Positions 20,846-39,077 of a stretch of DNA of 64,000 bases are shown here, piece after piece (within the stretch, counting starts at the first letter, position 1; every line of letters begins with the position of its first letter). A program made the position numbers and the translations under genes. The stretch is from Zobellia galactanivorans (GTDB lineage Bacteria; Bacteroidota; Bacteroidia; Flavobacteriales; Flavobacteriaceae): the NCBI RefSeq assembly GCF_000973105.1, contig NC_015844.1, forward strand, positions 2,848,501 through 2,912,500, written 5' to 3'. A model generated the notes under the pieces. It searched no databases. It saw only the letters and a list, made by a program, of their open reading frames with translations, and had not been told where the DNA came from.

Positions 20846-20998
20846 GTACTCGAGACGGGACTTGAACCCGTACGGACTAATGTCCATTGGATTTTAAGTC
20901 CAACGTGTCTACCAATTCCACCACTCGAGCCGCTATTGGTAAAGTCTTTAACAAAAAAACGCCGACAAGCAGCGTTTATAATGTCGAGCAAAAGACAG
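20846..20998 (-). repeat. 153 bp direct repeat, left copy
   Basis: Read base by base, this segment is identical to 38833-38985. It contains a complete tRNA-Leu gene plus 68 bases of its upstream leader. Beyond 20998 the similarity continues in degraded form through the 3' half of a tRNA-Gly gene. Confidence 0.95.
20847..20930 (-). tRNA. tRNA-Leu(UAA), left copy
   Basis: 84-nucleotide class II tRNA on the minus strand: acceptor GCTCGAG/CTCGAGT (one G-U pair), anticodon loop CTTAAAA giving anticodon UAA, long variable arm, T arm GGGTTCAAGTCCC, discriminator A, CCA not encoded. It is identical to 38834-38917. The promoter used by the right-hand tRNA pair is not present here, so transcription would depend on its short leader or on read-through from the PUL operon. 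Confidence 0.95.
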
Positions 20999-21003
20999 GT
21001 GAA

Positions 21004-21043
21004 AGCGAAAAACGTGATTCGGACCCTTGACCTCTTGGTAGGT
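21004..21043 (-). pseudogene. Decayed 3' half of tRNA-Gly(GCC)
   Basis: Aligned with the intact gene at 39005-39077, this stretch matches from the anticodon stem through the T arm to the 3' acceptor strand (ACCT..CCAAG..AGGTC..GGGT.CGAATC.CGTTTTTCGCT, where dots mark differences), with several substitutions and a short deletion. The 5' half is missing and is replaced by the coding sequence of a truncated lipoprotein. Confidence 0.7.
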
Positions 21044-21211
21044 AAACCGGACCAATTTAAGGGGGGCATCGGTTTCTTGTTTTTTGATCGCTTTTTCACT
21101 GGTTTGCTTACAGCTTGATAAAGCGAATAGGGCTATCATAAAAAGACTGATAGGATAAAGCGTACTTTTTTTTGGCCACTTTGTGCGATTTGATTTTTGA
21201 TTTCTTGCCAT
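21044..21211 (-). pseudogene. Truncated lipoprotein gene at island edge
   Basis: An ATG four bases after the stop of the DUF6786-like gene begins MARNQKSNRTKWPKK, followed by a hydrophobic segment and lipobox ALSSC, then only about 20 residues (KQTSEKAIKKQETDAP). From there the frame runs into the tRNA-Gly remnant and on to 20948, giving a nonsense tail. It looks like the last gene of the PUL operon cut off by the event that created the tRNA repeat. A genuinely short lipoprotein is less likely. Confidence 0.6.
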
Positions 21212-21215
21212 AGGT

Positions 21216-22478
21216 TTAGTTAAAGGCCTTTTTGATGTCATCTATGGTTACTCCGAATACTTGCTTTATTATGGGCGCCAAGCTATTTTCATTCCCTTCA
21301 ATATGAAAGGTGTGTTGGATATGCGTTCCGCTCTCACCGGCCTTTAGTGCCAAGGCAGGGGAGGAGGTTTCCAGTTCGTAAAAAGGGCCGAGGGGCTTTT
21401 TGCCGGGAGCAGGGGCGCCGTCATTATAGGAATTGATTACATCTCCCGAGTAGGGTTCTTCCTGTATTTCCCACATCGAATTTACGTAATCGCTTATGCC
21501 CTCGGGTTTGTTGTACTTTAAAATGGTCAGTATTTTGTGTTCCGTATCATAAGAGCCCGCTATGTTTTTTGCGCGAAGGGGAGGTAGGCCTATCTTGCTC
21601 CGATACTGTCCGTCACCGCTAAAATAGAGAACATTTTCTCGAACAACCAATCGTTCTGGTGGGACTTTGCCAAAGTAGGTATCGTTTACGACTGCGCCCA
21701 ATCGGTCTTCATTACCCGAGATATAGGGTATGACAATGGTTGTTTTAGGAGAAGGGTTGAACATGCCCAAGAGCCATATCGATACCAGTCCGGAATCTTT
21801 TTTCCAGTCCTCTTTTCCGGTGTTGGTTACGGTATTTGTGGTTTTATAGGCCACGGCCCTAGTTTCCCCCAATGTACCTATACCAAGTTCTTTCTGTATT
21901 TCTTCTGGGGATAAAAGTGTTATTTCACGTTCAATGCCCAAGTCGAATTGAAATCCTGAGTAATTGGTCAACGCGGCGTTTTTGGTAAATACCACCTTGT
22001 TCGGGGCACTGCTCTTTATATCGAAAGGTTCTAAGTCTATAAGCCTTGGAGTTTGCCAGTTTTCTAAGTTGAACTCATTTCCTTCCTTAAAAAACAGTGA
22101 ATATTGCCCGCCTTCGGGGCCTAGCCAAAAACGTTCTTCTCCACCAAAGGCATTGATGTGCTCTAGGGTGTCTTGTGATTCAAAAAGTTCCCTATTGATC
22201 CATCCATAACTTCGTCCGTTTGGTCCTGATGAACTACTGGTCATTACTCGACCTTGTAGATTAGGGGCTAGGGCGACTTTGGACTTGCCCGATGGATCCG
22301 ATAGTTCTATTATCGGGGTATAGGTTTTCATAAAGCTTAAATCATTCTCGTAAGGGGTAAAGGTTAGGGTATCTACGGCTTTGGGGACTTGGGTTTCTTT
22401 TTTCTCCGATTTACAGGCGGTCATGGCCATGATAAGGAGCAGGGGTATGAGGTACGGGTGGCTGATAGTTGTGTTCAT
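21216..22478 (-). CDS. DUF6786-like PUL lipoprotein
   Basis: 420 residues with signal MNTTISHPYLIPLLLIMAM followed by lipobox MTAC. The body resembles the DUF6786 family of PUL-encoded proteins, including FGGEERFWLGPEGGQYSLFF and a beta-sandwich pattern like galactose mutarotases. A role in handling oligosaccharides at the cell envelope is an inference from position: it follows the second sulfatase by 21 bases, and a truncated lipoprotein starts four bases after it. The family name is from memory of the motif and is moderately certain. Confidence 0.7.
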   Translation of the reverse strand: MNTTISHPYLIPLLLIMAMTACKSEKKETQVPKAVDTLTFTPYENDLSFMKTYTPIIELSDPSGKSKVALAPNLQGRVMTSSSSGPNGRSYGWINRELFESQDTLEHINAFGGEERFWLGPEGGQYSLFFKEGNEFNLENWQTPRLIDLEPFDIKSSAPNKVVFTKNAALTNYSGFQFDLGIEREITLLSPEEIQKELGIGTLGETRAVAYKTTNTVTNTGKEDWKKDSGLVSIWLLGMFNPSPKTTIVIPYISGNEDRLGAVVNDTYFGKVPPERLVVRENVLYFSGDGQYRSKIGLPPLRAKNIAGSYDTEHKILTILKYNKPEGISDYVNSMWEIQEEPYSGDVINSYNDGAPAPGKKPLGPFYELETSSPALALKAGESGTHIQHTFHIEGNENSLAPIIKQVFGVTIDDIKKAFN

Positions 22479-22499
22479 GTTTATTATGTTGAGTTTTTA

Positions 22500-24107
22500 T
22501 TATAGTTGGCTTCCCCACCAATTTGTATTGGGCTGCCAATCTGGAGATAACATCTTTTCGCGTTGTTTTTCCAATCGTGGCATCAAAATATTTCTATTGT
22601 TTTCCAGCTTTTGTTTCCATGCGGTTTCGTTCCATGAAGCGTCTTCTTCGGCATATTCGGTTTGCATAGCTTCCAGCCAGGCCAAGAGCTCTTCTTTCAT
22701 TTCAAGTGTCAGGATTTCCTTTTCAGTCGAGCGGTCCTTGGTTTCTCCCAAATCCGTATCTAAATCATAAAGTTCCGTGTGGCCGTCTTCCCAATAATGA
22801 ATGATTTTCCAGCTTCCCTTTCGCATGATGGAAACGGGCTCCCCTCCTTGATTGCCGTAATGCGGATAGTGCCAATACAAAGGTCTTTCGGCAATGCGCC
22901 CTCCTTTTAGCAGTGGCTCAAGGCTTACCCCATCTGCGTGGTGTTCGGGCTGAAGGGGAATATCGGCTAAATCTAGAAGGGTGGGGAATAGGTCGGCACC
23001 GGAAACGGGTACCTGGTTGTGGGTTCCTTTTTGTGACATCCACGGCACATAGATAAAATAGGGCACGCGCAATCCGCCTTCCCATTGATAGCCTTTACCC
23101 CCGCGAAGATCGAGTTGATTGGTAGAAAAATTATCCCCCGAGGTAACTCCTCCATTATCGGAAGTAAAGACCACTATGGTGTTTTTGTCGAGGTCGAGGT
23201 CCCTTAAAGTTTGTAGAACACTGCCAACGGCCTCATCTACTTGCTCTATCAAACCTGCATATACGGGATTGTCTTGGTATTTTCTGGCCGGTAATACCCG
23301 TTCCATTTCAAAACCTGTTTCGGCAATGCCCATACGTTCGGCCTTGTCCCTGTACTTTTTCCATTTGGCCTGTGTGGTCTGTATAGGGGAGTGAACGGCG
23401 TAAAATGAGAGATAGGCTAGAAATGTTGAGTCTTTTTGTTCCCTAATAAACGTTGAGGTTTCCTTTGCGAGCTTCATAGAAAGCGACATCCCTTTTTCCT
23501 CGGGATAGTCCATCATTTGCGGATTGTTGAAAGGGGAGAAATAGCCTCCGCTATAGGGGCCGCCTTTCTCATACCCGCCTTGGTTGATGTCAAACCCATG
23601 GTCTGTGGGCAAGGAGTGGTCCGCTTTGCTTCCTAAGTGCCATTTTCCCGCGAAAAAAGTGGTGTATCCATTATCCTTTAAAACTTCGGGCAGAATAACA
23701 TCTTCTCGGTGTAAGTGATGTTTGTATTCCGGAGGCAGCAATTTGGTATGTCGGTTGAGCTCTTTCCAAGCCTGTCCTGATTTGGCCCCTTCGTATTGGG
23801 TGAGCCCGTGTCTTGCCGTAAACTGTCCGTTCAACAAACTCGCCCGGGATGGACTACAAACGGCGCAGGTGGCATACCCATTGGTGAAAATAGTACCCGA
23901 CCTTGCCAGACTATCAATATTGGGGGTTTCGTAAAAGGGGCTTCCCATAACGCTCAAATCGGTATAGCCCAAATCGTCGACCACAATAAAAAGGATATTC
24001 GGTTTTTTATTTGGTACAAGGCTTTGTTTTTGGTTTCCACAGGAAACTAAACACGCTGTGCCAAGGCAAGCTAAAATACTATTTATGGTACTTGTTCTCA
24101 TTGTCAT
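22500..24107 (-). CDS. S1 family sulfatase (lipoprotein)
   Basis: 535 residues. The N-terminus is a lipoprotein signal ending VSC (Cys23). The sulfatase core shows metal-binding NILFIVVDDLGYTD (residues 37-50), and the catalytic motif C-S-P-S-R at Cys84, which would be oxidised to formylglycine by a maturase not encoded in this window. GKWHLG and FTSDNGG complete the S1 pattern. It hydrolyses a sulfate ester, presumably on the polysaccharide handled by this PUL; subfamily and substrate cannot be read by eye. The start lies 3 bases from the GH97 stop, so the two are co-transcribed. Confidence 0.93.
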   Translation of the reverse strand: MTMRTSTINSILACLGTACLVSCGNQKQSLVPNKKPNILFIVVDDLGYTDLSVMGSPFYETPNIDSLARSGTIFTNGYATCAVCSPSRASLLNGQFTARHGLTQYEGAKSGQAWKELNRHTKLLPPEYKHHLHREDVILPEVLKDNGYTTFFAGKWHLGSKADHSLPTDHGFDINQGGYEKGGPYSGGYFSPFNNPQMMDYPEEKGMSLSMKLAKETSTFIREQKDSTFLAYLSFYAVHSPIQTTQAKWKKYRDKAERMGIAETGFEMERVLPARKYQDNPVYAGLIEQVDEAVGSVLQTLRDLDLDKNTIVVFTSDNGGVTSGDNFSTNQLDLRGGKGYQWEGGLRVPYFIYVPWMSQKGTHNQVPVSGADLFPTLLDLADIPLQPEHHADGVSLEPLLKGGRIAERPLYWHYPHYGNQGGEPVSIMRKGSWKIIHYWEDGHTELYDLDTDLGETKDRSTEKEILTLEMKEELLAWLEAMQTEYAEEDASWNETAWKQKLENNRNILMPRLEKQREKMLSPDWQPNTNWWGSQL

Positions 24108-24110
24108 TTT

Positions 24111-26024
24111 TTACTTCTTACTTGGTCTGATCCACATACAATGCCCACCGCCGGGTGCTATTTTTGCATTGATAACATCTCCTTTTTTTACGCTTCCCCT
24201 TCGTACCTGATAGGCTTCCGGCTTGGTCTTAAAGTGAGTCGCATCGGTATCTTCATAATAGGTAATATCATACGCCTTTCCAGCTTCCAGAAAATCCAAG
24301 ACAATAGGTAACTCGCCTCCTGGTTCATTATAAACAGAACCGATAAACCAAGACGCGTTATGTCGTCTTGCCGTAGAGATGTAAGCATCCATTTTGGCGT
24401 GGAGTATTTTGGTCTCGTCCCATTGTCCTATGGGCATTTCCTTAATAAATTCAAACAGGTCGCTTTTTTCGGTGTAGGCTTCCGGGGCATCTGGAATGCA
24501 CACAAGCCCGCTAAAAATAATCAAGGTTCTGGCTGCTTCCGCAGTGACCGTGGTATTTAGATTTTTGGCTTTCGGGCCTTTTTCCCTTTCCCCAGTATTG
24601 ACTCCGGTGATATCGAATACACCATTGTTCATATCCAAGGGGCCTTGCAAGGCGTTTATCAATGCCATGCGAATAAAGGCTTGTGGGGTGAAGGCCCGTC
24701 TAGAGTCTTGTTGGGCGTGGCAATATTCCCTTGTAATGGCATTCGGGTAGGTTCGGGTAACCCCGGTAAACGGCACCGGACTATCGTGAAAGTCGATTAA
24801 AAGTTCACTTTCTGCACTTTTTTTAATGGCCTCCCTTGTAAAGGAAACATTGCTTCCCATAAAGCCGTATTTAATTCCTTTGGCGCCCAATTCTTGATAA
24901 TACGGGAAAAGTGCGGCATCTCCGTAATCTCCTTGGCGTCTGTCATAATACAACAATACGGACACTCCTTTCTCTTTTGCATAGTCCATTACCTTTTGCA
25001 AATCGAGTTTGTCTGACATTTCAATTTGTCCTTTGGAAACATCGGTATACCAAGCATCATCGATCATGAAATATTCAATACCGTTCTCTGCGGCAAAATC
25101 GATAAACCGTAAGTAGCTTTCCGTGTCTATTCCGTAAGTAAATCCATCTGCTGCGGTATATCCGTGCACACGCCAATCCCATACCGTTTTTCCGGGCTTG
25201 ATCCATGAAGTATCTTCGAGCGCCAGTGGTGCGGCTACATTTTGTGGAATGGTGTTGGTGAGCAAGTCACCTATGTTTTCTTCTATGAGAACCAAGCGCC
25301 AAGGGGTTGTCAGTTTGCTTCCTTCGGAAGTAAATTCGTTATTGGAAATGAGTTTCCCTTTTTTCTTATCGTATTCAAAATCGATTACGGAAAAACCGGG
25401 AGCGCTTACCAAATCTGATTCGAGAAGCGATATGTATTTGCTTTGATCGGTCTCTATTACCAAAGGTACTTTCCAGCGGTAAGGAATAGAATCCATTCGC
25501 TCCAAATCACTCAAAACAATAGGGCCAATCGGCATACTTTCCCCGGCCGGCATATAGATTTTGTCGGAAGCGGAGAGTCCATATTCCATGTAAAAGGCAG
25601 GTTTTTTAGCTATAGGATATTTATCGGTCATAAAACGGAAGGCACTGCCGCCATCATAGGCACGAATATATAGGGTAGCCGGAACACCTTCATAATCTAG
25701 GGACACCTCTAGCTCGTTATACGTGTCTTGAATTTTACTGAACTGCCCCCAAACCGGACTCCAGGTATTAGAGAAGGAAGTAATCTTGGTGTCCGTTACT
25801 TTTACTTTTGTATTCGGAAAAATCGACAACGCTGAATTTTCAAGTGTTTGTTGTCCATTTTGGAAGATAGAATAACTTAAAATACCATCGGTATGGGCAA
25901 GTGTGAGTTCAATCGATTGGTCCGGGGATTTTAGGATATAAGTATGGGAAGGCACTTTACATGCCTTTGATAGGCTTGCAACGAAGAAGATCCAACCAAT
26001 TATAAGCCATTTTTTGTTTTTCAT
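24111..26024 (-). CDS. Glycoside hydrolase family 97
   Basis: 637 residues: lipoprotein-type signal (lipobox SKAC, Cys22), N-terminal beta-supersandwich domain, then a (beta/alpha)8 barrel with YFMIDDAWYTD, GVSVLLYYDRRQGDYG, LLIDFHDSPVPFTGVTRTYPN, NAITREYCHAQQD and LQGPLDMNNGVFD, the order typical of GH97. Known members are alpha-glucosidases or alpha-galactosidases with either retaining or inverting mechanism; I cannot settle which applies. The segment GIKYGFMG has a glycine where many members have an aspartate, and CHAQQD departs from the commoner RG-x-E pattern. It sits between two sulfatases, 3 and 17 bases from its neighbours. Confidence 0.9.
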   Translation of the reverse strand: MKNKKWLIIGWIFFVASLSKACKVPSHTYILKSPDQSIELTLAHTDGILSYSIFQNGQQTLENSALSIFPNTKVKVTDTKITSFSNTWSPVWGQFSKIQDTYNELEVSLDYEGVPATLYIRAYDGGSAFRFMTDKYPIAKKPAFYMEYGLSASDKIYMPAGESMPIGPIVLSDLERMDSIPYRWKVPLVIETDQSKYISLLESDLVSAPGFSVIDFEYDKKKGKLISNNEFTSEGSKLTTPWRLVLIEENIGDLLTNTIPQNVAAPLALEDTSWIKPGKTVWDWRVHGYTAADGFTYGIDTESYLRFIDFAAENGIEYFMIDDAWYTDVSKGQIEMSDKLDLQKVMDYAKEKGVSVLLYYDRRQGDYGDAALFPYYQELGAKGIKYGFMGSNVSFTREAIKKSAESELLIDFHDSPVPFTGVTRTYPNAITREYCHAQQDSRRAFTPQAFIRMALINALQGPLDMNNGVFDITGVNTGEREKGPKAKNLNTTVTAEAARTLIIFSGLVCIPDAPEAYTEKSDLFEFIKEMPIGQWDETKILHAKMDAYISTARRHNASWFIGSVYNEPGGELPIVLDFLEAGKAYDITYYEDTDATHFKTKPEAYQVRRGSVKKGDVINAKIAPGGGHCMWIRPSKK

Positions 26025-26041
26025 AGATAGGACTTAAAGCG

Positions 26042-27622
26042 TTACTTGGTTACGATTCCTTCAATTTGCTTCCAGCCCTCCATGCCATCGTTCTTCTGCT
26101 TTACGCCAGGGGTACTCCGCCCGTCCAATATTATTTTTTTAAGGGCTTTTTTTAGCTCTTTGGCTTTTTTAGGATTGTCCTCGATCCGGTTTTTGGTTTC
26201 ACCGATATCGTCTTTTAAATTGTATAACTGCATATCGGGTAAATCAAGCTTCTCTTTTTCTATATCCTGCGGTCTAGGATAGCTCCAACCACCAGAGCCT
26301 GGGCAAACACTCAGTTTCCAGTCACCTTGTCGAATGGCAAAAGACCCATTAATGGAGTGGTGGACTATATATTCACGAATGTCTTTATCCTTAGTGCCTT
26401 TGATCAAAGAAAGCATGCTGTAGCTATCTTCCGCTTCCGTATCCGGAATTTCGTAGCCGGTTAGCTCTGCGCAGGTCGCAAAGAAGTCCGTCGTGCAGAT
26501 AAGCTTGTCGGAACTTGCGTTCTTCAACCCTTTGCTTGGCCATTCTACGATAAAGGGTACGCGGTGTCCGCCTTCAAAGATATCCGCTTTGGTTCCCCTA
26601 AAAACATAACTGGGGTCATGGTCAACCTTTTCAAGCTCTTTAAAGTCGGCTTTTGGCGAACACCCGTTATCACTGGTAAATACCAATAGCGTGTTTTCTG
26701 AAATGCCTTGACTTTTTAGGGTTTCCCGTATTTGGCGTACCACATCATCTACTTGCATTACAAAATCTCCGTACATATTGGTATTGCTTTTACCTAAAAA
26801 TTCAGTGGTCGGTAGAATTGGGGTGTGTGGGGCAGGTAAGGGGAAGTATAAAAAGAAAGGCGAGCTGTCTTTTGCGTTCTTCTCTATATAACCTACGGCT
26901 TTGTCCGTTAGATCTTGTAGTACCGTGGCATGTACAAAATCGTCTGAAGTAAGTCCTTTTCTCCAAATCCCCTTGTCGTCTACGGATACAGTGGTTTTCG
27001 TCGGCACCATGGTGGGCCTATCGTTTTCGATATAGACGTATGGGGCCATATCCAAAGAACCACAGAATCCGAACGAATAATCAAAGCCGTGGGTAGAAGG
27101 CCCATTTTTTACAGGGACGGAAAAATCAACCTTTGGGTTTACATTCAGTTTGTCATGCTCTAAGTTGGCATTTTCGTCCTCGATCGCCCAATCCCAACCA
27201 AGATGCCATTTTCCGATATAAGCGGTGGTATAACCTTGGGTTTTTAGCATTTCGGCCACGGTCGTGCGCTCTTGTTTGATCAAAGATTTTGAATACCCGC
27301 TTAAAACGAAACTTTTTAGGGAGCTACGCCAATTATAGCGCCCCGTTAAAATGCCGTATCGGGTTGGGGAGCACACTGCGGATGAGGTATGTGCGTCAGT
27401 GAACTTGATGCCATTGGCGGCCATGGTGTCGAGGTTTGGTGTCGCGATTTTGCCTTTTGGATTAAAGCTTTTAACATCGCCATAGCCCAAATCATCGGCA
27501 AGGATATATATGATATTAGGACGGTCGACTTTTTGGTTTTTATCTTGACCGAAACTGGGGCCGCAAGCTAGAAACGTATAGGATAAAAGGAGTAGGAGGG
27601 TGGTAGGTTTGTTGGTGAGCAT
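26042..27622 (-). CDS. S1 family sulfatase
   Basis: Choosing the ATG at 27622 gives 526 residues with a normal signal (MLTNKPTTLLLLLSYTFLACG); the frame also offers an earlier ATG at 27667, which would add a basic, unlikely N-terminus. Metal-binding NIIYILADDLGYGD, the formylglycine motif C-S-P-T-R at Cys84 (chosen start), GKWHLGWDW and FTSDNGCSPK mark an S1 sulfatase. It is first in the sulfatase-GH97-sulfatase-DUF6786 group, separated from the upstream GH16 gene by a terminator and about 340 bases, so it probably has its own promoter. Confidence 0.93.
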   Translation of the reverse strand: MLTNKPTTLLLLLSYTFLACGPSFGQDKNQKVDRPNIIYILADDLGYGDVKSFNPKGKIATPNLDTMAANGIKFTDAHTSSAVCSPTRYGILTGRYNWRSSLKSFVLSGYSKSLIKQERTTVAEMLKTQGYTTAYIGKWHLGWDWAIEDENANLEHDKLNVNPKVDFSVPVKNGPSTHGFDYSFGFCGSLDMAPYVYIENDRPTMVPTKTTVSVDDKGIWRKGLTSDDFVHATVLQDLTDKAVGYIEKNAKDSSPFFLYFPLPAPHTPILPTTEFLGKSNTNMYGDFVMQVDDVVRQIRETLKSQGISENTLLVFTSDNGCSPKADFKELEKVDHDPSYVFRGTKADIFEGGHRVPFIVEWPSKGLKNASSDKLICTTDFFATCAELTGYEIPDTEAEDSYSMLSLIKGTKDKDIREYIVHHSINGSFAIRQGDWKLSVCPGSGGWSYPRPQDIEKEKLDLPDMQLYNLKDDIGETKNRIEDNPKKAKELKKALKKIILDGRSTPGVKQKNDGMEGWKQIEGIVTK

Positions 27623-28003
27623 CTTCTTTGTTAGTTTGTTTTTTTTATAATTATTCAATATTGCCAACTAACTTAAGAAAACTTATATAGTACTAGGGTT
27701 AAAAAGGTAGGAATAATGCATTGGGTTTGCGAAAAACTTGAATAAATCGAAATATTAGGGGGTAGATAAATGAAAGCTTGATGGTTTGTTGTTTAAGGTA
27801 TTCATTATCTATTAAGGAAAACGAATGGTCTTAAAGTTTTTTACATGTGTGGGAACCTACAAAAGGAAGAAAACGCTAAGCTTTTGTATAGCTATTCCGT
27901 GTTTAAAATGATTGGCAAGTTTCAGTCGTTTAGAAAAAAACCTTGAAAATCCGAAGATTGACAAGGTTTTTAGTTGATTAGAGCAAAAGGTTGGTTCGTG
28001 ACC
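27623..28003 (-). other. Intergenic region splitting the PUL into two units
   Basis: About 380 bases between the GH16 stop and the sulfatase start. It contains one hairpin terminator (27938-27970) and presumably a promoter for the sulfatase operon. A TATATAAGTTTTC stretch at 27679-27691 (minus-strand sense) is a weak -7 candidate; no good TTG partner was found. Confidence 0.4.
27938..27970 (-). terminator. Hairpin terminator after GH16
   Basis: AAACCTTG pairs with CAAGGTTT about 34 bases beyond the GH16 stop and ends in a U run on the minus strand. It is nearly identical to the hairpin at 20811-20843. Confidence 0.75.
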
Positions 28004-29155
28004 TTATTGATAGATCCTTACATAGTCTATTTCAAAAATATCATCTGTGAAATTCTCGGGGATATCACCGCCCAGGGTTCCGCCCATGGCAATGTTCAAC
28101 AGTAGGTAATGCGGGGCGTTATATGGCGTGTTCTGAGAGTTTTTCAATTCGTAAACAAGGGTGTCGTCTAGAAATACTTTCATTGCGGAGGCGTTCCATT
28201 CTAGGGAATAAACGTGGAATGAACCGGAGGCGTTTGTTATGGGGGTGGTGCCACCTAAATTCTGGTATTCATCAGAGTTAAGATCGGACCAATGAAAATG
28301 GGCAATAGTACTTTCCTTGTCCCAGCCGTTTTGTTCCAGAATGTCAATTTCGCCGCATGCGGGCCATTCGGCGTTGCCATATTGTTCGCCAAAATAGTTT
28401 CCGGTTTCATTTGAGTTGGCACCCAAAGTCCAGATGGCGGGCCATGTGCCTTTTTTACTTGGTAGTTTTGCCCTCACTTCAACTTTTCCATAAGTAAAGG
28501 CGAATTTTGAATTCAGCCTGGCCGAAGTGTAATCTTTTGTAGAGCCCTCAAAGGTATACTTCTCTTTTATGGCCCTTATTTTTAATGTGCCATCGCTTAC
28601 AAATGAATTTTCACTACGATTTGTGTAATGCTGTAATTCGTTATTATGCCAGCTGCCATTATTCGGGGGGATCACCTGATAGTGCCATTTTTCCGGGTCG
28701 GGTTTTCCTTCGTATTCAAACTCGTCTGAAAACACTAAGGTATTAAAGGCTTCATTCGACTTATATACTTCTACATTGAAGGTCTCGTTAATGAATTCGC
28801 CCGTAGGGGAATAGGCCCAAACCACTATCGTGTAGGGGTGGGTGCCCTCTTCTGTAAATGTATGGGTGGTGGAACCATCCGTGCTGTCTTCTACATCACC
28901 ATTTTCGAACCTGAAGGCATATCTCACCGCATTTGAGGCTGAGGCCGAAACCTCTACGATTCCGGAACCATTACCATTTGGGTGGGCGTCATCTGTACCT
29001 ACAAGGGTGATGTCTACCTTCAAATCAGTAGGTTTTAGATCCTGTCCTGAATCCGTAGAACTGCAAGAAAGTGCAACTAGAAGTATAGAGAGTGATAGGT
29101 TTAGGTAGTTTATCATAATCATTCGGTAAAAGGGCGTTTTTCGATTAATTTTCAT
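28004..29155 (-). CDS. GH16 endo-glycanase, laminarinase-like, with N-terminal PKD-like domain
   Basis: 383 residues with a lipoprotein signal (lipobox ALSC, Cys31; an ATG at residue 12 or 14 may be the true start). A PKD-like domain (about 45-130) contains VRYAFRFENGD and HTFTEEGTHPYTIVVWA. The GH16 domain (about 137-383) has the retaining-enzyme motif E-I-D-I-L-E with Glu269 as nucleophile, Asp271 and Glu274 as acid/base, preceded by GTWPAIWTLGAN and WPACG as in GH16_3 laminarinases. An endo-beta-glucanase activity is likely, but the sulfatases nearby leave room for another beta-linked polymer. It is last of the susCD unit. Confidence 0.92.
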   Translation of the reverse strand: MKINRKTPFYRMIMINYLNLSLSILLVALSCSSTDSGQDLKPTDLKVDITLVGTDDAHPNGNGSGIVEVSASASNAVRYAFRFENGDVEDSTDGSTTHTFTEEGTHPYTIVVWAYSPTGEFINETFNVEVYKSNEAFNTLVFSDEFEYEGKPDPEKWHYQVIPPNNGSWHNNELQHYTNRSENSFVSDGTLKIRAIKEKYTFEGSTKDYTSARLNSKFAFTYGKVEVRAKLPSKKGTWPAIWTLGANSNETGNYFGEQYGNAEWPACGEIDILEQNGWDKESTIAHFHWSDLNSDEYQNLGGTTPITNASGSFHVYSLEWNASAMKVFLDDTLVYELKNSQNTPYNAPHYLLLNIAMGGTLGGDIPENFTDDIFEIDYVRIYQ

Positions 29156-30915: not shown

Positions 30916-32532
30916 TTAGTTGTATCCATCGTTTTGAGGGTAGTTAGGACCGAGTAAATCCATCTGTTCTTGTGGAATAGGCCAATTTTGCATGTACTCC
31001 CTGAGTATCGTTTTGGGGTTTCCTTCGGGGTACGACTCGTTCATATTGTCGTTGTTCATATGGTCGAGCAAGAACTCGTACAATTTGCCGGTTCTTTTGA
31101 GGGTATACCAGCGTTGTCCCTCAAAACCGAGTTCACGCGCCCTTTCATCGAGTACGGTTTGCAGGTCGATAGAGCTGGCCGGAGCGGCGTTCGCCCTTGT
31201 CCTAACGGTATTTAAATAATCGAGGGCCTTGGCATTGTTGCCTAACATCATTTGGGCCTCTGCTGCGATTAAATAGGTCTCGGCCAATCTGTAGACCATA
31301 ATGTTTTTATAGTGGTTTCGGTCGGTGGGTTCGACCGTTTCATCGAAGAATTTAAGAACACCGGGATTTTGTCGTCTGTAGTACAGCATAAATTCGTTCT
31401 GGTCGGTTTCGCTGTTTTCATATAGATCGAGGGGATCGCCTAATTCCTTACCTTCAGGAAGTGCGCTTTCATCATTATAGGCATAGTTAAATATGTAATA
31501 GGTGTTGTTTTTTCTATCGTCGTTGGGATCTTCGTTAAGTAGGTCGATCATGTAGCTGTTCAATGAAATAAAGCCCGCTCCGGAACCGCCGTTTTCTACC
31601 GATTGTATCAAACCGGGCGCATCGGCGTATGACGCCACCATGTTCCAGTTCATAATATGCGGACCGCCACCGCCGATGGTTTCTTTTTCAAAATTGATGG
31701 CGAACAAGGTTTCTACGTGGTCGAGCTCCCCTGCAAAAACGTCTTTGGTGGTGGGGGCCAGGCTGTAGTTTCCACTGTTCAATACCGCTTCTGTTTGGTC
31801 GGCGGCCTCGCTCCAATCGTTTTCCCACATGGCTACTTTGGCCCTGAGGTGCCTTGCCGCACCTTGGTTCCATCTTCCGAATTGCTCGGTAAAATAATCA
31901 AGGTTTTCGATTGCGAAATCGAGGTCTGACCTGAGTAAGGCGAATATTTCATCTACTGATGATTTGTCTTGGGGTACGTCAAAAGCGTTTTCGGGGGTAG
32001 TCGGCTCGGTAGTGATATAGATGTTGTTGAATAAGCGGTAAAGTGTAAAATATGCTTGCGCCCGCATACATTTGGCCTCGGCCAAAATTTGGTTTTTGAG
32101 GCTAATGTCGATGTCGTCGAGTTCTTCGGCCCCTTTGATAATGGCATTTGCCCTATCTACAACCTTGTAATTGCGAACCCAATAGGCGCTTATACCTGCC
32201 GTAGTTCCGTAGTCGCCAAGGCTGGCTCCCCACAACAGTCTACTGTAAAGGGATACCTCACCGGTTATGCCTACGCCCAGATCGCTTTTGGCTTGAGGAA
32301 TCAAGGGAATGGTTCCGTTCAAGCTTAGGTCTTGGTAGATTTCACGATTGAGCGTGTAAAGTCCGACTACGGCCGATTCAAGACCTTCAGGGGTAGAATA
32401 GAGAAAATCGACCGATGTGTCGGACAGTAATTTATCCTCTAATAAATCATCATCGCAAGAGCTCGATAGGGCAACGGCAATGACTAGAGTAAAAAGTCTT
32501 TTTAACAATATGTAACTATTTGTATTTTTCAT
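30916..32532 (-). CDS. SusD/RagB family glycan-binding lipoprotein
   Basis: 538 residues with lipobox SSSC (Cys26) followed by acidic DDDLLED. SusD hallmarks are the N-terminal helix region TPEGLESAVVGLY, TPR-type helices (AKCMRAQAYFTLYRLFNNIY) and the C-terminal block VYRLAETYLIAAEAQMMLGN ... ALDYLNTVRTRA and RARELGFEGQRWYTLKRTGK. It forms the hinged lid of the SusC transporter and binds extracellular glycan. The start is 9 bases downstream of the susC stop. Substrate specificity cannot be read from the sequence. Confidence 0.95.
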   Translation of the reverse strand: MKNTNSYILLKRLFTLVIAVALSSSCDDDLLEDKLLSDTSVDFLYSTPEGLESAVVGLYTLNREIYQDLSLNGTIPLIPQAKSDLGVGITGEVSLYSRLLWGASLGDYGTTAGISAYWVRNYKVVDRANAIIKGAEELDDIDISLKNQILAEAKCMRAQAYFTLYRLFNNIYITTEPTTPENAFDVPQDKSSVDEIFALLRSDLDFAIENLDYFTEQFGRWNQGAARHLRAKVAMWENDWSEAADQTEAVLNSGNYSLAPTTKDVFAGELDHVETLFAINFEKETIGGGGPHIMNWNMVASYADAPGLIQSVENGGSGAGFISLNSYMIDLLNEDPNDDRKNNTYYIFNYAYNDESALPEGKELGDPLDLYENSETDQNEFMLYYRRQNPGVLKFFDETVEPTDRNHYKNIMVYRLAETYLIAAEAQMMLGNNAKALDYLNTVRTRANAAPASSIDLQTVLDERARELGFEGQRWYTLKRTGKLYEFLLDHMNNDNMNESYPEGNPKTILREYMQNWPIPQEQMDLLGPNYPQNDGYN

Positions 32533-32541
32533 AACAGTATT

Positions 32542-35511
32542 TTAAAATCCTAGTTTGACGCCAAGTGTGATGTTTCTCGTCTCGGGAAATGCCGTGCCCG
32601 AATCGGTGAGGGGGTTCTGTTCCGGACTATACGACCTAAAATCGGTTAACGTCAGTAAATTGGTGCCGGTCAAATAAATTTTCGCTCTTTGAAACCCCGT
32701 TTTTGAAAATAGATCTTTTGGAAAGGTATATCCGAGCGTCAAGGTTCTTAGCCTTACGTACGAGGCATCCCTTACTGCAAAGGAATACAGGTGTAGATGG
32801 GTGTCGGGTTTCGGCCTTGGGTATTCGGTCGAAGGGTATTCGGGGGTGTAGTATTTGGCTCGAATACCATTAATGGATCCCTTCCATAATTCGCCATTGG
32901 CAAGAACGGTGTTCAGTTTGGTCGCTCCTTGTACAATATAGAGGTCGGCAAAAAGATCAAAATTCTTATAGGTAATCGTATTGGTGATGGATCCGTACCA
33001 ATCGGGGTCGGCATTGATAAAAACATTGTCCCTATTATCGATCTGGCCATTGCCATCTTGGTCTACGACCCTGACGTCTCCGGGCTGCGCCAAAGGGTTG
33101 CCCGAACTTGCGATATCATCGCCTTCTTGATAGATGCCGTCGTATTGTGGTAGCCAAATATTGTTGATGGATTGGCCTACTGATAGGCGCCTGCCGTAGG
33201 TGTCGGTAATATCGATCGGGTCGCCGTTTTCATCCAATTCGCCCGTAAGGGAAATGATCTCGTTTTTGTTCTTCGAAAAAACGGTTCCGAGCGACCATCT
33301 GAACTCTTCTTTTCTAATGATATTTGTCGTTAAGGAAGCTTCGAGCCCCCTGTTTTCCAGTTCGCCCACATTGAAGCGAATTACATTGTACCCCGTCGTT
33401 CCGGCAATGGACCTGTCGAGCAACAGGTCGGTGGTGTTGGCTTTGTAATACTCTAAAGTACCTTCGAATAGATTGTTGAAGAGTCTAAAATCGACACCTG
33501 CGTTCAAGGTTGTTGTGGTCTCCCATTTTAAATCGGGATTGGGCAGGCGTGAGGAGGCGGTAGCTCCGGCAACGGTCCTGTCACCAAATATATAAGGAAG
33601 ATCGTCTGCCACACCCAACGATTCGAGTGAATTGATACCTTGGTTACCTGTGGCCCCGTAACTTACCCTGAGCTTCATTTCATCTATGGCCTTGATATTT
33701 TCCATAAAAGGTTCGCTGTGCATTTTCCAGGCCACTGATACCGCAGGAAAGAACCCCCACTTGTTGTTTTCGGCAAAAACCGAGGCTCCATCGGCACGGG
33801 CAGTGGCCTCTAGAAGGTAGCGGTCTAGATAGCCATACCTTACCCGGCCTAGAAAAGAAAGCAGCCTTCTTTGTGAAACACTTCTTTCACTATTAAGCAA
33901 AGTGGTTGCATTGCCATTATAACCAAGGGCATCGTTCGTAAAGCCCGATTTGTCTAGTTGGCTATATTCGGTCAATTGTTCATCGAAGGCTTGTACCGCG
34001 GTAAAGTTTAGGCTGTTATTGTCGTTTATTTGCGGGGTGTAATCGAGAATGTTCTCTATCAACAGTTGTTTGAAAAAGGTGTTCGAGATAACGGCAAGGC
34101 CATCTATGCCTTCATCTCCTGCCGAATGCAATGATGAACGATAGATTCCCCTATTGGTGTTTCTGTTGCGCAAGAAGCTTTTTAAGGTATAGGATAGGTT
34201 TGGATTGAAATCGTATACCAAGCTCAAGTTGATGTCCGTAAGGTTAATTTTGGTTTCGTCTTCCGATTCTCTTTGGTCCCATAAAGGGTTGATCGCAGTG
34301 TTTGATGGTCCCAAATAATTTTTCACCAAGTTTCCTTCATCGTCAAAAGGTTTGGCCAATGGGGTTATGGTGGTGAAGTTTAGGTTACCGGTTTCTTGGT
34401 CTTGCTTGGCGCTTTGGTAGTTGAAAATACCTTTCAACGATAACTTGTCGGTAAGCTTTTGATTAATGTTTAGTTTAAAGGTGCCACGGTCGTATCCTGA
34501 ATTGGGAATAATTCCTTCTTGGGAGAAGTAGTTAAGACTTGAAAATACCTTGGTCGATTCGTTTCCTGCCGAATAGCTAAGTGAATGGCTTTGGATTACG
34601 GCGTCTTGTAAGATCAAATCTTCCCAATCGACGAAGTCTTTGTTAGCAATGGCTTCCAATTCGAAAGGGGAGAAAATATTCTCATCGTTCAGGTATTCGC
34701 CCGTAAACCGGTTTCGGTTGGCTTCCCTTTTTAGGTCTATATACTGTTGTCCATCGTATTGATTGAAGTTCTTGGTAAGGGTCTGAATGGTGGTATACCC
34801 ATGGTAGTCTATCGTCGATTTCCCCGATTTCCCGGTTTTTGTAGTTACCAGGATGACCCCATTGGAGGCTCGCGAACCATATATGGCAGTTGCCGAGGCA
34901 TCTTTTAGAATTTCTATATTGGCGATATCATCGGGTGATACATCGTTCAAACTGTCAAAGGGCAGGCCGTCGACTATGACCAAGGGGGAATTGCCGTTAG
35001 GTGCTACGGAAACATTTCCACGGATAACGATTTCCGATCCGCCCCCAGGTCGGGCATCCGATAAATTTACCTGAACCCCTGCGGCTCGGCCCCTTAGCAT
35101 TTCGGAAACGTTTGTGGTTGGTACCGAGGTAGCCTCGTTGACCTCGACACTGGTAACGGAACCGACTACATTGCTTTTCTTCTGTGTACCGTAACCTACT
35201 ACAATAACTTCATCTAAGGTTTGGGCATCCTCTTCTAAGGTTACGTTTAAGGTAGTAGCATCGCCAACGGTGATTTCTTTCGTAAGAAAACCAATATAAC
35301 TAAATGACAAGACATCTTTATCTGTGATATTTTGGATAACATATGCTCCGTCAAAGTCGGTTACAACCCCGTTGGAAGTACCTTTGACGACAATGTTGAC
35401 CCCGGGTAACGGCCCCATGGCATCCGATACGGTGCCACTTATCGATTTAGTTTGTGAATAACAAACAGTAGTACATATGAGTACAATGAATTTTAATAGA
35501 ACATATCTCAT
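32542..35511 (-). CDS. SusC/RagA family TonB-dependent glycan transporter
   Basis: 989 residues: signal peptide (MRYVLLKFIVLICTTVCYSQ), carboxypeptidase-regulatory-like domain (about 25-95, ISGTVSDAMGPLPGVNIVVKG), TonB-box region DEVIVVGYGTQKK, plug domain (LRGRAAGVQVNLSDARPGG ... IEILKDASATAIYGSRASNGVILVTTK), and a 22-strand barrel ending in GVKLGF. It imports oligosaccharides across the outer membrane with SusD as lid, powered by TonB-ExbBD encoded elsewhere. The gene starts the susC-susD-SGBP-GH16 unit; a candidate promoter lies 24 bases upstream. Confidence 0.96.
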   Translation of the reverse strand: MRYVLLKFIVLICTTVCYSQTKSISGTVSDAMGPLPGVNIVVKGTSNGVVTDFDGAYVIQNITDKDVLSFSYIGFLTKEITVGDATTLNVTLEEDAQTLDEVIVVGYGTQKKSNVVGSVTSVEVNEATSVPTTNVSEMLRGRAAGVQVNLSDARPGGGSEIVIRGNVSVAPNGNSPLVIVDGLPFDSLNDVSPDDIANIEILKDASATAIYGSRASNGVILVTTKTGKSGKSTIDYHGYTTIQTLTKNFNQYDGQQYIDLKREANRNRFTGEYLNDENIFSPFELEAIANKDFVDWEDLILQDAVIQSHSLSYSAGNESTKVFSSLNYFSQEGIIPNSGYDRGTFKLNINQKLTDKLSLKGIFNYQSAKQDQETGNLNFTTITPLAKPFDDEGNLVKNYLGPSNTAINPLWDQRESEDETKINLTDINLSLVYDFNPNLSYTLKSFLRNRNTNRGIYRSSLHSAGDEGIDGLAVISNTFFKQLLIENILDYTPQINDNNSLNFTAVQAFDEQLTEYSQLDKSGFTNDALGYNGNATTLLNSERSVSQRRLLSFLGRVRYGYLDRYLLEATARADGASVFAENNKWGFFPAVSVAWKMHSEPFMENIKAIDEMKLRVSYGATGNQGINSLESLGVADDLPYIFGDRTVAGATASSRLPNPDLKWETTTTLNAGVDFRLFNNLFEGTLEYYKANTTDLLLDRSIAGTTGYNVIRFNVGELENRGLEASLTTNIIRKEEFRWSLGTVFSKNKNEIISLTGELDENGDPIDITDTYGRRLSVGQSINNIWLPQYDGIYQEGDDIASSGNPLAQPGDVRVVDQDGNGQIDNRDNVFINADPDWYGSITNTITYKNFDLFADLYIVQGATKLNTVLANGELWKGSINGIRAKYYTPEYPSTEYPRPKPDTHLHLYSFAVRDASYVRLRTLTLGYTFPKDLFSKTGFQRAKIYLTGTNLLTLTDFRSYSPEQNPLTDSGTAFPETRNITLGVKLGF

Positions 35512-35566: not shown

Positions 35567-35713
35567 AGAAGATGCCTCTATAAAAAACCTACATTGACAT
35601 AATTTGCATATAAAAATTATGATTTTATTAAAATTACCCCGTTAAATATGATGATTGAAGAATATTAAGGGTCCGCTGTAAACCGCTTTTTACTTTACTG
35701 GTTAATTGGTTGT

Positions 35714-35746
35714 TAGAGGGATTGTAGAGGCAATGTAGAGGTAATC
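35714..35746. promoter_or_regulatory. Three tandem 11-bp repeats upstream of susC
   Basis: TAGAGGGATTG, TAGAGGCAATG and TAGAGGTAATC follow one another without gap. The period equals one helical turn, so all copies face the same side of DNA. They lie between the regulator gene and the susC promoter and are candidate binding sites for the adjacent regulator. Confidence 0.5.
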
Positions 35747-35784
35747 GTATGATGTGTAGGGGCGGATTTTTTTATCGGGTGATA

Positions 35785-38580
35785 TTAGAAGTTCAAAATA
35801 TAGTCAATGAGGTTGTCTTGATGTGGTAGATCAAACTTTTTACGGAGCCTGTATCGCTTCATTTCAACACTTTTTACAGATATGTTGAGTAATGGTGCTA
35901 TTTCTTTGGAGGATAAATTGAGTCTCAAATAGGCGCATAACCGTAAATCGTGATTCGTAAGATTTTTGTGTTTGCTCTTGATGCGTTTTAAAAAGTCTTT
36001 GTCCGCATTGTTGAAGGCGTCTTCAAAAAACTTCCAGTCGTCTTCGCTGCTAATGTTTTGGTCAATTTTCTTAATGACAGGGTTGATAGCTTTTTTTTGC
36101 TCTGAAATGTTGATCAAATCTTCCTTGAGGGCATAGAGAAACTTGTTTTTCTTTAGGAAGCTCATGGTCAAAATGGCAAGCTCCCTATTTTTGTTCTCTA
36201 TTTCGCTTTGAAGTTTTTCATTGACAATTTGGGCAATTTTATCCTTCTCTTCTAGCTTTTGAAGTTCGAGTTCCTTCTTATTTCGTTTAATTATCGAGTC
36301 TTGTTTTTTTCGGTAATACCGTTTGTAGAATCTGTGTATTGTAAAGAATAACAGAACTAATGCCAATAGATACAATAAGAGTGCACTGTTTGAGGCGTAC
36401 CACGGTCTATGTATGGTAAATGTGTATGATGCGATGTTTTTGCTTAGGCTGTTGCCGATTTTGGCCTTTACGATGAATTCATAGTCGCCAAAAGGTAAAT
36501 TGGTATAGACGACTTCAGGGGTTTCCGACCATTCGCTCCATTCATTGTATTGGCCCTTTAGTTTATGCTGGTACTGAACGTCGATATATTTGTTGAATTC
36601 AGGGACGCTGAATTCAAATCGTAGATTGTTATGTATATAGTCAAATTCACCTTCTTGGGTTAAATTGGCCTTATTTGAAATATCGCGATAGTTTCCATAA
36701 TTGATGGCATTGATCTGTACGTTGTGCTTGGAGGTCGAAATTTTGTTTAGGTCGAGGGTAAGGTATCCATTAGAGCTTCCTATGAGGTATTCATTGTTTG
36801 AAATGTGTGAGATATTTTCAAAACCCGATACACCAAAGTTGCTTCTTATGGCTTTGGGCATAGGGATGTTCTTCTGGCCCAGTTTTCCGGTCAGGGTATT
36901 AGGGGCAATATACTTTATTCCGTTATGGGTAAAATACCATAGCTTTTCGTTTAAGGTGTCTGGAATAATAATACTGGTTGGTGCTTCATCCTTATAAAAA
37001 ATCAATTTTGTAAAGGTACTGTCCAGTGCAATGTCGTCTAAAGAGTGTCCTACGGTATAAATCGCATCATTGGTCTTGTAGTACAACCGGTCTTTGAACT
37101 TGAAAATGTTGGAGCTATGCCCCTTTCTGGGGATCTGTTGCATTTGTACTACTTGTTTTAAATTTTGGTCGAGCTCAAGTTTATATAGGCCTTTTTGTTC
37201 GTGATCGACGATTACCTGAAGGGAATCGATTTCAAAAAAACGGCTCGAAGTGTTGAACCCTTCAATTATATTGCGCAATTTCCAATTGCCGTTTTTTCTT
37301 TCCAGAACGCTTAATCCGTTGTAATTGCCTTGTAGCAAAAGCTCGTTGTTGAAAGCAATGGTTTTTACGGCCCATGTTCCGGGAAAATCGGAGATGAGTT
37401 TTGCGGAATCTTCATGAATTTCAAAAGTCCCGTTGTTATGGCCACAGAATATGGTCGAACGAACCAGTTGAAGGCTCCATACTTGTCCTTCGGTACCTTT
37501 TATCAGTTCGAAATTATCGCTGCCGTCCGTTCGCTTTGCAAATAAGCCTTGGTTGGTTCCTAGGTAGAGATAGCCCTTGTGTGACAAGGCGGCGTATACC
37601 AGTCCTAAATTGCCCAAATGATCTGCATATTCGTTAATGGGAGAGTAAATGTTGATCACACTTACCCCGTTGTCAAGGCCTAGCCAAAGGTTATTGTCGC
37701 TGTCTTCAAATATAGAAAGTACCGTATTGTTGTTCAGGCCTTTGGCCTGGGTGATGTTTTGAATGAGTTTGCCGCTCGATGATAGGTGATAGAAGCCGTT
37801 TGCAATACTGCCCAACACAAAACTGCCATCGTTCAATTGAAGGCTTTCGTACAACTTCACATTTAAATGGGTCATGTCGGTTGGCCAAGGGTGTAGTTTT
37901 GAAAAGTCGTATTGGTAAAACTGTCCATTGTCGGTTATGACCATGAGGTTGTTTAGGTGTTTGTACACCCCGATAATCGTATGTGTGGTAAAAACAGGAT
38001 GGTTGCTTACCAAAAGAGGTTTTCCGCCATCGATGGTAAATAATCCTTTTTTTGCTATTTGAAAGTAGACCTTATTGTCGACAAGGTTCAGCCTGGCCTT
38101 TTGTGACTCGGCCTCTATAAACTTAAAAGTATTTTCTGTGGGGTCGTAAATGTATATACGGTCTAAAGATTGAAAAAGAATGGAACTGTCTATGGGTAGA
38201 ATCTTCCAAAACTCTTCATCTTCGGCCATGGTAATGCTTAACCTATCGGATAGGGAGGTATATTGTAACTCGCCGTTATCGTCTTTTTTCCAATAACCGA
38301 ATTCTTTGTAAGATCCGGTGTATATTCTATCGTCAACCGCTTTGACCGACCTTATGACCGAAGCGTTTGGTAGTTTATAGCGGTGCCATGTAGAACCGTC
38401 GAATTCGAGAAGGTTCATGTGATTGGCTATAAAAATAGTCTTTGATGAAGATTGTGAAATACCCCAATTCTGGTATTCGCCGTTATATTCTTGGGGCGTA
38501 TAATTTTTAATAGGGGGTAATTCCTGTGCGCATACGCTTAGGTATGTAAAACTGATCAAGTAAAGAATATAGTACTTCAA
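35785..38580 (-). CDS. Membrane-spanning PUL regulator: propeller, triple-tyrosine domain, LuxR-type HTH
   Basis: 931 residues: signal peptide (MKYYILYLISFTYLSVCAQE), two-component-regulator-type beta-propeller repeats (about 25-620, for example ITQAKGLNNNTVLSIFEDSDN followed by LWLGLDNGVSVI), a triple-tyrosine (Y_Y_Y) domain (about 640-720, VQYQHKLKGQYNEWSEWSE), one transmembrane helix (about 731-752), a cytoplasmic coiled coil (755-830) and a C-terminal helix-turn-helix (about 866-931, LSSKEIAPLLNISVKSVEMKRYRLRKKF). There is no histidine kinase or receiver domain, so it should act as a one-protein, membrane-bound sensor and DNA-binding regulator of the PUL. It lies immediately upstream of susC on the same strand. 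Confidence 0.92.
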   Translation of the reverse strand: MKYYILYLISFTYLSVCAQELPPIKNYTPQEYNGEYQNWGISQSSSKTIFIANHMNLLEFDGSTWHRYKLPNASVIRSVKAVDDRIYTGSYKEFGYWKKDDNGELQYTSLSDRLSITMAEDEEFWKILPIDSSILFQSLDRIYIYDPTENTFKFIEAESQKARLNLVDNKVYFQIAKKGLFTIDGGKPLLVSNHPVFTTHTIIGVYKHLNNLMVITDNGQFYQYDFSKLHPWPTDMTHLNVKLYESLQLNDGSFVLGSIANGFYHLSSSGKLIQNITQAKGLNNNTVLSIFEDSDNNLWLGLDNGVSVINIYSPINEYADHLGNLGLVYAALSHKGYLYLGTNQGLFAKRTDGSDNFELIKGTEGQVWSLQLVRSTIFCGHNNGTFEIHEDSAKLISDFPGTWAVKTIAFNNELLLQGNYNGLSVLERKNGNWKLRNIIEGFNTSSRFFEIDSLQVIVDHEQKGLYKLELDQNLKQVVQMQQIPRKGHSSNIFKFKDRLYYKTNDAIYTVGHSLDDIALDSTFTKLIFYKDEAPTSIIIPDTLNEKLWYFTHNGIKYIAPNTLTGKLGQKNIPMPKAIRSNFGVSGFENISHISNNEYLIGSSNGYLTLDLNKISTSKHNVQINAINYGNYRDISNKANLTQEGEFDYIHNNLRFEFSVPEFNKYIDVQYQHKLKGQYNEWSEWSETPEVVYTNLPFGDYEFIVKAKIGNSLSKNIASYTFTIHRPWYASNSALLLYLLALVLLFFTIHRFYKRYYRKKQDSIIKRNKKELELQKLEEKDKIAQIVNEKLQSEIENKNRELAILTMSFLKKNKFLYALKEDLINISEQKKAINPVIKKIDQNISSEDDWKFFEDAFNNADKDFLKRIKSKHKNLTNHDLRLCAYLRLNLSSKEIAPLLNISVKSVEMKRYRLRKKFDLPHQDNLIDYILNF

Positions 38581-38800
38581 ATCAATGGAATATAATTAGA
38601 ACCTACGAAAGGGATAATTTAAAATAATAATCTTAGTTATGGCGATTATTTTTTTGGACAGAAACCTTAACAACCTTTCTTTTATGATTTTGAGATCGAT
38701 AGGGCGAAATATGGGATGTTCTTGTCAGGTGCAATTTATGCATTTTAGACTGTATGTAGGAAAGCTTTTCGATTCGAACTGAAACAAGCGGAAAAAGAAA

Positions 38801-38825
38801 AAGCCAAGACGATTAATCTTGGCTT
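38801..38825 (-). terminator. Terminator of the tRNA-Gly/tRNA-Leu unit
   Basis: AAGCCAAGA and TCTTGGCTT form a 9-bp perfect stem 8 bases beyond the right tRNA-Leu 3' end, with a U-rich tail on the minus strand. The left tRNA-Leu copy has a different hairpin at this place. Confidence 0.75.
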
Positions 38826-38833
38826 CTCATCTG

Positions 38834-38917
38834 TACTCGAGACGGGACTTGAACCCGTACGGACTAATGTCCATTGGATTTTAAGTCCAACGTGTCTACC
38901 AATTCCACCACTCGAGC
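38834..38917 (-). tRNA. tRNA-Leu(UAA), right copy
   Basis: Same 84-nucleotide gene as 20847-20930, anticodon UAA. It lies 87 bases downstream of tRNA-Gly on the same strand and is followed by a hairpin terminator. Confidence 0.95.
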
Positions 38918-38939
38918 CGCTATTGGTAAAGTCTTTAAC

Positions 38940-38964
38940 AAAAAAACGCCGACAAGCAGCGTTT
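38940..38964 (-). terminator. Hairpin with U tract between tRNA-Gly and tRNA-Leu
   Basis: On the minus strand AAACGC, a 9-base loop, GCGTTT and a run of U residues form a terminator-like hairpin in the tRNA-Leu leader. It is also present in the left copy (20953-20977). It may be a processing signal rather than a true stop, because only about 22 bases separate it from tRNA-Leu. Confidence 0.45.
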
Positions 38965-39004
38965 ATAATGTCGAGCAAAAGACAGATGAAATCTGTGCTC
39001 TTTG

Positions 39005-39077
39005 AGCGAAAAACGGGATTCGAACCCGCGACCTCCACCTTGGCAAGGTGGCGCTCTACCAGCTGAGCTATTTTCGC
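39005..39077 (-). tRNA. tRNA-Gly(GCC)
   Basis: 73-nucleotide cloverleaf: acceptor GCGAAAA/TTTTCGC, D arm GCTCAGCTGGTAGAGC, anticodon stem CCACC/GGTGG with loop TTGCCAA giving anticodon GCC, T loop TTCGAAT, discriminator U as usual for tRNA-Gly. CCA is not encoded. Confidence 0.96.

Follow-up and report, generated by a model that had tools for sequence, protein, structure and literature searches.

An unusually readable, layered island beside a tRNA-Gly/tRNA-Leu(UAA) pair carries a laminarin-type locus in Zobellia galactanivorans

In the single-contig genome of Zobellia galactanivorans (5,521,712 bases), a stretch of 64,000 nucleotides (positions 2,848,501-2,912,500; hereafter the window, whose own numbering is used for all coordinates) contains an 18 kb segment of glycan-use genes at 20846-39077 bracketed by two copies of tRNA-Leu(UAA). 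The layers of this tRNA-linked island are unusually easy to read, and the explanation that we favour, at a probability of about 0.55, is that of a composite island which grew stepwise at the 3′ end of a tRNA-Gly/tRNA-Leu(UAA) pair beside mutS, together with one unequal illegitimate exchange that duplicated the Leu unit. A preliminary description of this DNA had suggested that a glycan-use locus was acquired as a unit by insertion at a tRNA gene. Empty sites in related genomes support the addition of an island at this place, whereas a single, precise, integrase-type insertion of one polysaccharide utilization locus (PUL) is contradicted by a joint that cuts a gene, a tRNA remnant that is not an att-like half tRNA, the composite make-up of the island, and the lack of a near tyrosine integrase and of an arm repeat in the window.

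Both tRNA-Leu(UAA) genes (20846-20930 and 38833-38917) and an intact tRNA-Gly(GCC) (39004-39077) were identified by ARAGORN on the reverse strand, which also carries the other tRNA parts, terminators and genes of the locus and its right flank. The two Leu genes lie in a direct repeat of 159 nt with 99% identity, the first 153 bases of which are identical, so that the complete Leu genes, the intact Gly gene at the right and the 153-base identity all agree with the preliminary description. Genome-wide, the repeat is present in these two copies only, plus one 30-bp tRNA match. The left copy retains the Gly-Leu spacer (20931-21003, 14 bp less than the right spacer) and, at 21004-21026, a remnant of tRNA-Gly (21/23 nt by blastn) comprising the 3′ acceptor strand and the T-arm. 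The remnant is taken as real because it adjoins the duplicated spacer and because a scan of every 23-mer on either strand of the window gave, apart from the tRNA itself, no other place within six mismatches of the Gly 3′ end. It ends before the anticodon arm, where bases of a lipoprotein gene come next; the decayed tRNA-Gly described earlier is therefore confirmed, but not its start at the anticodon stem. Because the 85 tRNA bases and 32 adjoining bases are identical across all 10 aligned copies in the genus, only about 36 of the 153 bases are informative. The 153-bp identity says little about the age of the repeat, and gene conversion between the two Leu copies was an unnecessary assumption with so few informative positions.

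In order to place the repeat in its genus, nine Zobellia genomes including the present one were compared, with one genome per species; 20 kb around the locus was taken from each of the eight congeners, and 37.5 kb from the one designated G007. The Leu-Gly-mutS arrangement has one full match in all nine genomes, and a second Leu match is present only in the Z. galactanivorans genome, a result that covers the best 40 of 42-48 candidates in three of the genomes. ARAGORN found one Leu and one Gly at the locus in each of the eight congeners, and mutS (39211-41832; identified by Pfam) adjoins the tRNA pair in 9/9 genomes as the conserved right flank. In 7/8 congeners, the terminator comes about 0.1-1.6 kb after the proC side, then Leu, Gly and mutS, and nothing there matches the island. 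A comparison with genomes lacking the PUL had been proposed in the preliminary description, with the left-hand DNA expected to run directly into a single Gly/Leu pair, and this is what these seven genomes contain; the eighth, G007, holds a decayed island and one Leu. The terminator beside the left Leu copy (20802-20845) is the genus' own tRNA-Leu terminator and aligns with that of the seven empty sites. The terminator beside the right copy (38799-38826; hereafter the new terminator) is, within the genus, present only here and in G007. Since 7/8 congeners are empty and the terminators of the two Leu copies differ, material has been added at this tRNA locus.

The flanks of the locus in G007 are 93-96% identical to those in the window, and its one Leu copy has the right-hand type of terminator. 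G007 also holds decayed pieces corresponding to 21025-22517, 25539-26215 and 27275-27746 of the left part of the island, but neither the laminarin core nor a left Leu copy in the 37.5 kb compared. The left module and the new terminator, being present in both genomes, predate the split from G007.

The left border of the island lies at 21025-21026, where the T-arm of tRNA-Gly runs into a GH43-like lipoprotein gene near its codon 50, the bases CC being common to both sources. The stub of this gene (21023-21151; N-terminal residues about 8-50) has homologues in G007 and in a second congener, G002. The match between the window and G007 begins at 21025, and the G007 gene runs past the joint, broken, over residues 8-264; the full homologue in G002 is an open frame of 338 aa that is GH43-like by Pfam. 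Lipoprotein DNA related to that of G007 (67%) also adjoins a sulfatase-GH97-sulfatase module at another locus in G002 and in two further congeners, G003 and G004. Because the lipoprotein gene cut at the joint continues in G007, the left border is not a precise element end. A direct repeat of the tRNA 3′ end at both ends, as at a precise border, is not found; a 23-nt remnant is joined inside the lipoprotein gene instead, and the fusion of the Gly T-arm to the interior of a gene with 2 bp shared has the form of an illegitimate joint.

The island itself consists of two modules parted by a further terminator. At 27934-27974, 41 nt repeat the left Leu terminator with 90% identity (matching 20807-20847) and stop where the 3′ edge of a tRNA would stand. 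A 26-nt pattern, built from the two copies with N at positions that differ between them or in the genus, has one further site in the 5.52 Mb genome at ≤3 mismatches, beyond the two matches that are perfect by construction; the reversed control gave 0. To the left of this terminator copy lie genes for a DUF6786 protein (21216-22478; 93% DNA identity in G007), a sulfatase (22500-24107), a GH97 glycoside hydrolase (24111-26024) and a second sulfatase (26042-27667), all assigned by Pfam. To the right lies the core, with a GH16 endo-1,3-beta-glucanase (laminarinase; 28004-29155), a SusE-like surface protein (29230-30885; assigned by position, with a weak CBM match only), SusD (30916-32532), a SusC TonB-dependent transporter (32542-35511) and a Reg_prop/Y_Y_Y regulator of 931 aa (35785-38580), the last three by Pfam. 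The view that the segment is exactly one PUL is thus refuted by the internal terminator copy. The two modules differ in history, because the core SusC has no close relative in Zobellia (best 47% in the other eight genomes, with two genomes lacking any match at E 1e-150), whereas GH97 has relatives with 83-84% amino acid identity at other loci in G003 and G004. Other relatives of GH97 are split at 90% and 70% in G002 and stand at 57% in G001; none was found in G005-G008 at E 1e-100. The simplest account would be an addition of the core and the new terminator in the interval from the old terminator to the tRNA.

The core has the genes of a laminarin PUL, namely a SusC/SusD pair and a GH16 laminarinase. 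Residues 134-383 of the GH16 protein match PDB entries 4bq1 (E 1.7e-173) and 4bow (E 7.9e-173), which we take to be ZgLamA of Z. galactanivorans. Laminarin is a major marine carbon store (PMC7104365, as stated in the part consulted). PUL11 and PUL28 are mentioned as laminarin loci of Z. galactanivorans in the available passages of PMC9296495, and neither is equated here with the present locus. The nearest relative found for the core is in Pseudozobellia thermophila DSM 19858, with 93% identity for SusC and SusD; in the comparison by protein, MutS stands at 89%, SusC at 91-93%, SusD at 93%, GH16 at 72% and the regulator at 70%. For Euzebyella marina, the values are 87% for MutS and 80% for SusD. 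This divergence would allow either transfer of the core or old residence with loss. The core shares its gene set and gene order with the flavobacterial laminarin PULs of Pseudozobellia, Euzebyella and Galbibacter marinus (G037), from which the present locus differs by its place beside a tRNA and by the separate sulfatase/GH97 module.

Under the favoured explanation, the sulfatase/GH97 module would first have settled between proC and the Leu terminator. The laminarin core would then have come in next to the tRNA, bringing a new terminator and separating the tRNA from the old one, which now stands at 27934-27974. Finally, one unequal illegitimate exchange with 2 bp shared at the joint would have duplicated the Leu unit, its left arm being of the empty type (proC, terminator, Leu, spacer, Gly T-arm) and its right arm occupied (lipoprotein stub, modules, Leu, Gly, mutS). 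An exchange between the Gly T-arm of an empty site and the lipoprotein gene of an occupied one yields the observed order, including the native terminator on the left. The partners could have been different strains or sister chromosomes, and the exchange might have proceeded by homology-facilitated illegitimate recombination, in either direction, with an incoming fragment anchored on the shared tRNA/mutS region, or by tandem duplication followed by loss of one copy of the modules. Homologous recombination had been offered earlier as the alternative to an integrase; recombination does fit the locus better, in the form of an illegitimate exchange with 2 shared bp.

Several observations weigh against this sequence of events. 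G007 has the new terminator without the core, so either the core was lost there or the terminator came first. The lipoprotein gene of G007 also lacks its C-terminal part, and the proC-side border in that genome is a deletion scar too; G007 may for this reason once have had a left Leu copy. The joint in the window could likewise have arisen by a deletion that later removed a cleaner, original end of the insertion, and its two shared bases can be chance. Several other genera also have a terminator of the new type next to tRNA-Leu, accompanied in two genomes (G136 and G264) by an integrase-type repeat, so that an integrase could have taken part earlier on. The comparison draws on one genome per species, and both the order and the direction of the steps given above are provisional.

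It was also considered whether an 18 kb element bearing an integrase had entered tRNA-Gly and restored it with its own 3′ half, the displaced 3′ part remaining at the left end and the integrase later being lost. Such an event leaves one end with an intact tRNA and the other with a directly oriented 3′ remnant, as is the case here, and integrase-type elements do hit tRNA-Leu(UAA) elsewhere: Pseudozobellia has a 3′ half that breaks off at the anticodon, and in G264 a 3′ half adjoins an arm-like repeat. In a scan of 299 family genomes with full copies and halves pooled and ≤2 matches scored per genome, the Leu 3′ half matched twice in at least 15, the genome studied here among them. The event would nevertheless leave the left border unexplained, since the gene cut there continues in G007, and a single integrase event for the whole segment fails on this point. 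The element would also have had to carry a whole tRNA-Leu together with the spacer alleles of the host lineage, and the internal terminator copy points to two layers. A tRNA-Leu half as an integrase scar is ruled out in the window, both Leu copies being whole. No tyrosine integrase is encoded in the window, as had been stated before; the genome has four PF00589 matches (0.67, 0.81, 3.15 and 3.69 Mb), and about 240 kb separates the right end of the window from the nearest of them. Serine recombinases were sought only among the window open reading frames (ORFs) run against Pfam, and none was found there. We consider an integrase origin of the whole segment improbable.

The arm-like repeat GTACAACATAGGTACAAC, which is absent from the window, has four exact occurrences, spread over three genomes that belong to three genera (two element ends in G264, one site in G136 and one in Euzebyella), all beside tRNA-Leu elements (L103, 8188; L097, 598; L117, 1486; L068, 8200). 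A degenerate form with 3 mismatches lies between tRNA-Leu and the regulator in Winogradskyella immobilis, and in Euzebyella an integrase match follows about 1 kb past a tRNA-Leu(UAG) half. The repeat is possibly an arm-type site of a tRNA-Leu integrase family, although the 220 records searched (2.02 Mb with overlaps) were mostly chosen for tRNA-Leu or PUL matches and its link to tRNA-Leu is thus biased. The new terminator was rejected as proof of an element, the same type being present beside tRNA-Leu in genomes without GTACAACATAGGTACAAC in the compared stretch.

A different history would have the core already residing 3′ of tRNA-Leu in the common ancestor of Zobellia and Pseudozobellia, with loss in the other Zobellia, in which case the incoming DNA would be the empty-type left arm and the second Leu the product of a failed replacement. 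The core occupies the same position in Pseudozobellia, its divergence is of the order of that of MutS, and a 3.0 kb unit to the left of the joint is shared at 94% with another Zobellia, though at another locus there. Against this stands the absence of the core from 8/8 congeners, which demands one early loss or several later ones. The core also does not follow MutS, by which Euzebyella stands about as close to Zobellia as Pseudozobellia does (87% vs 89%), while by SusD it is much further away (80% vs 93%). We regard old residence as rather unlikely. An assembly artefact or a chance repeat is scarcely credible in view of the 5.52 Mb single contig, the flanks that differ on both sides of both copies, and a right border with island remnant common to G007.

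Related arrangements were found at tRNA 3′ ends in other genera. In Pseudozobellia, the core ends beside the anticodon-cut tRNA-Leu(UAA) 3′ half, the intact Leu-Gly-mutS arrangement being on another contig. Among 36 named loci with a related regulator, a tRNA or tRNA 3′ part lies ≤600 bp upstream on the same strand in seven: one in Pseudozobellia (L145, Leu half), four in Winogradskyella (L166, L169 and L176, Gly-Leu; L167, Leu cut by the contig end) and two in Hanstruepera (L163 and L164, Asn). Among the other 29, more distant tRNAs are tRNA-Arg at 2-4 kb (L171, L172, L178), tRNA-Asn at 8 kb (L168, Hanstruepera) and tRNA-Met at 9 kb (L146), and one Euzebyella locus (L157) has a tRNA-Leu(UAG) 3′ half at its GH16 end. 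The remaining 23/36 loci have no tRNA, including a fifth Winogradskyella locus (L177), a fourth Hanstruepera locus (L179) and the Allomuricauda and Flagellimonas loci except L146. When complete tRNAs only were counted, 5/34 regulator ORFs (from the 36 loci, with L167 scored as a miss) were tRNA-linked compared to 0/290 other ORFs of ≥200 aa at the same loci (Fisher p ~1e-5, a value that is too small because the loci are related). Identity to the query regulator is only 42-45% in Winogradskyella and Hanstruepera (42-43% in Winogradskyella taken alone). The neighbouring matches in Winogradskyella DT_120 reach just 30% for SusC and 33% for GH16; relatedness there extends to the regulator, and the core is a different one.

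A second tRNA copy beyond the PUL was sought in eight Winogradskyella and Hanstruepera genomes and seen only in DT_119, a metagenome-assembled genome with two Leu(UAA) copies. One of these is at a contig end beside a related regulator (L216 and L217 being the two loci), the other at a PUL-free Gly-Leu site; the arrangement may occur here for a second time, or the assembly could mix strains. That laminarin-type loci include travelling loci without an integrase, moved by recombination on tRNA-Gly/tRNA-Leu(UAA)/mutS and other tRNA anchors and coming to rest repeatedly, in genera far apart, at one and the same tRNA 3′ end, is a speculative and unlikely generalisation, made less likely by the finding that in Winogradskyella only the regulator is related. 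Related regulators lie 3′ of a tRNA gene in four genera, and further genomes would allow this pattern to be tested.

This island has in common with integrase-mediated tRNA islands that a cluster was added beside a tRNA, that a directly oriented tRNA fragment marks the opposite end and that relatives have an empty site. It differs from them in having no near tyrosine integrase, a remnant of T-arm and acceptor strand joined inside a gene, a duplicated whole neighbouring tRNA and two layers. A direct tRNA repeat around a PUL is by itself no proof of an integrase-type island. Homology-facilitated illegitimate recombination is described, in the part of PMC3240628 consulted, for three naturally competent species and for E. 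coli conjugation. The likeness lies in a candidate homologous anchor at one end and, at the other, an illegitimate joint where few bases are shared; the difference is that the process is inferred here from one sequence. The candidate anchor comprises Leu, spacer, Gly and mutS, which are common to empty and occupied chromosomes, and no crossover point is visible in it. PULs exchanged between Bacteroidota (PMC13188876, in the portion available) are comparable in that a glycan locus is a transferable unit, but no conjugation genes were found among the window ORFs run against Pfam. No open-licence literature on this tRNA arrangement was found, as judged by titles and the opening lines of abstracts, and the word tRNA is absent from the passages of PMC5613140 and PMC9296495 at hand. 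The spread of laminarin use among bacteria is mostly inferred from phylogeny; here some steps are readable in the sequence, because an empty site, a half-decayed sister island and an internal terminator copy coexist.

Both tRNA-Leu genes look expressible, each having kept a conserved upstream block and a terminator. A demand for extra tRNA-Leu(UAA) linked to the PUL was rejected, the TTA share of leucine codons being 0.16 in the left module and 0.18 in the core vs 0.16 in nine other window genes. A terminator-like hairpin within the Gly-Leu spacer (20957-20977 and the matching right-hand place) adjoins the 32 genus-invariant bases; the scan found one hairpin vs 1.1 expected in shuffles, which is not above chance. 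The hairpin region may hold a promoter of tRNA-Leu itself.

Between proC and the left tRNA copy, the 3.0 kb unit mentioned above (17562-20560) comprises three genes without a Pfam, NCBIfam or PADLOC match and has a counterpart of 94% identity at a different locus of G003 (G003:C36). Related motifs (TTTTTCATTTTCATATAGT...) coincide with both of its ends, and the motif also stands alone before a stem-loop elsewhere in the genus. The unit looks like a site-specific cassette-type element. At the left edge of the window, 49-13851 encodes a protein of 4600 aa with PKD, malectin and Por_Secre_tail sorting domains, which is internally repetitive.

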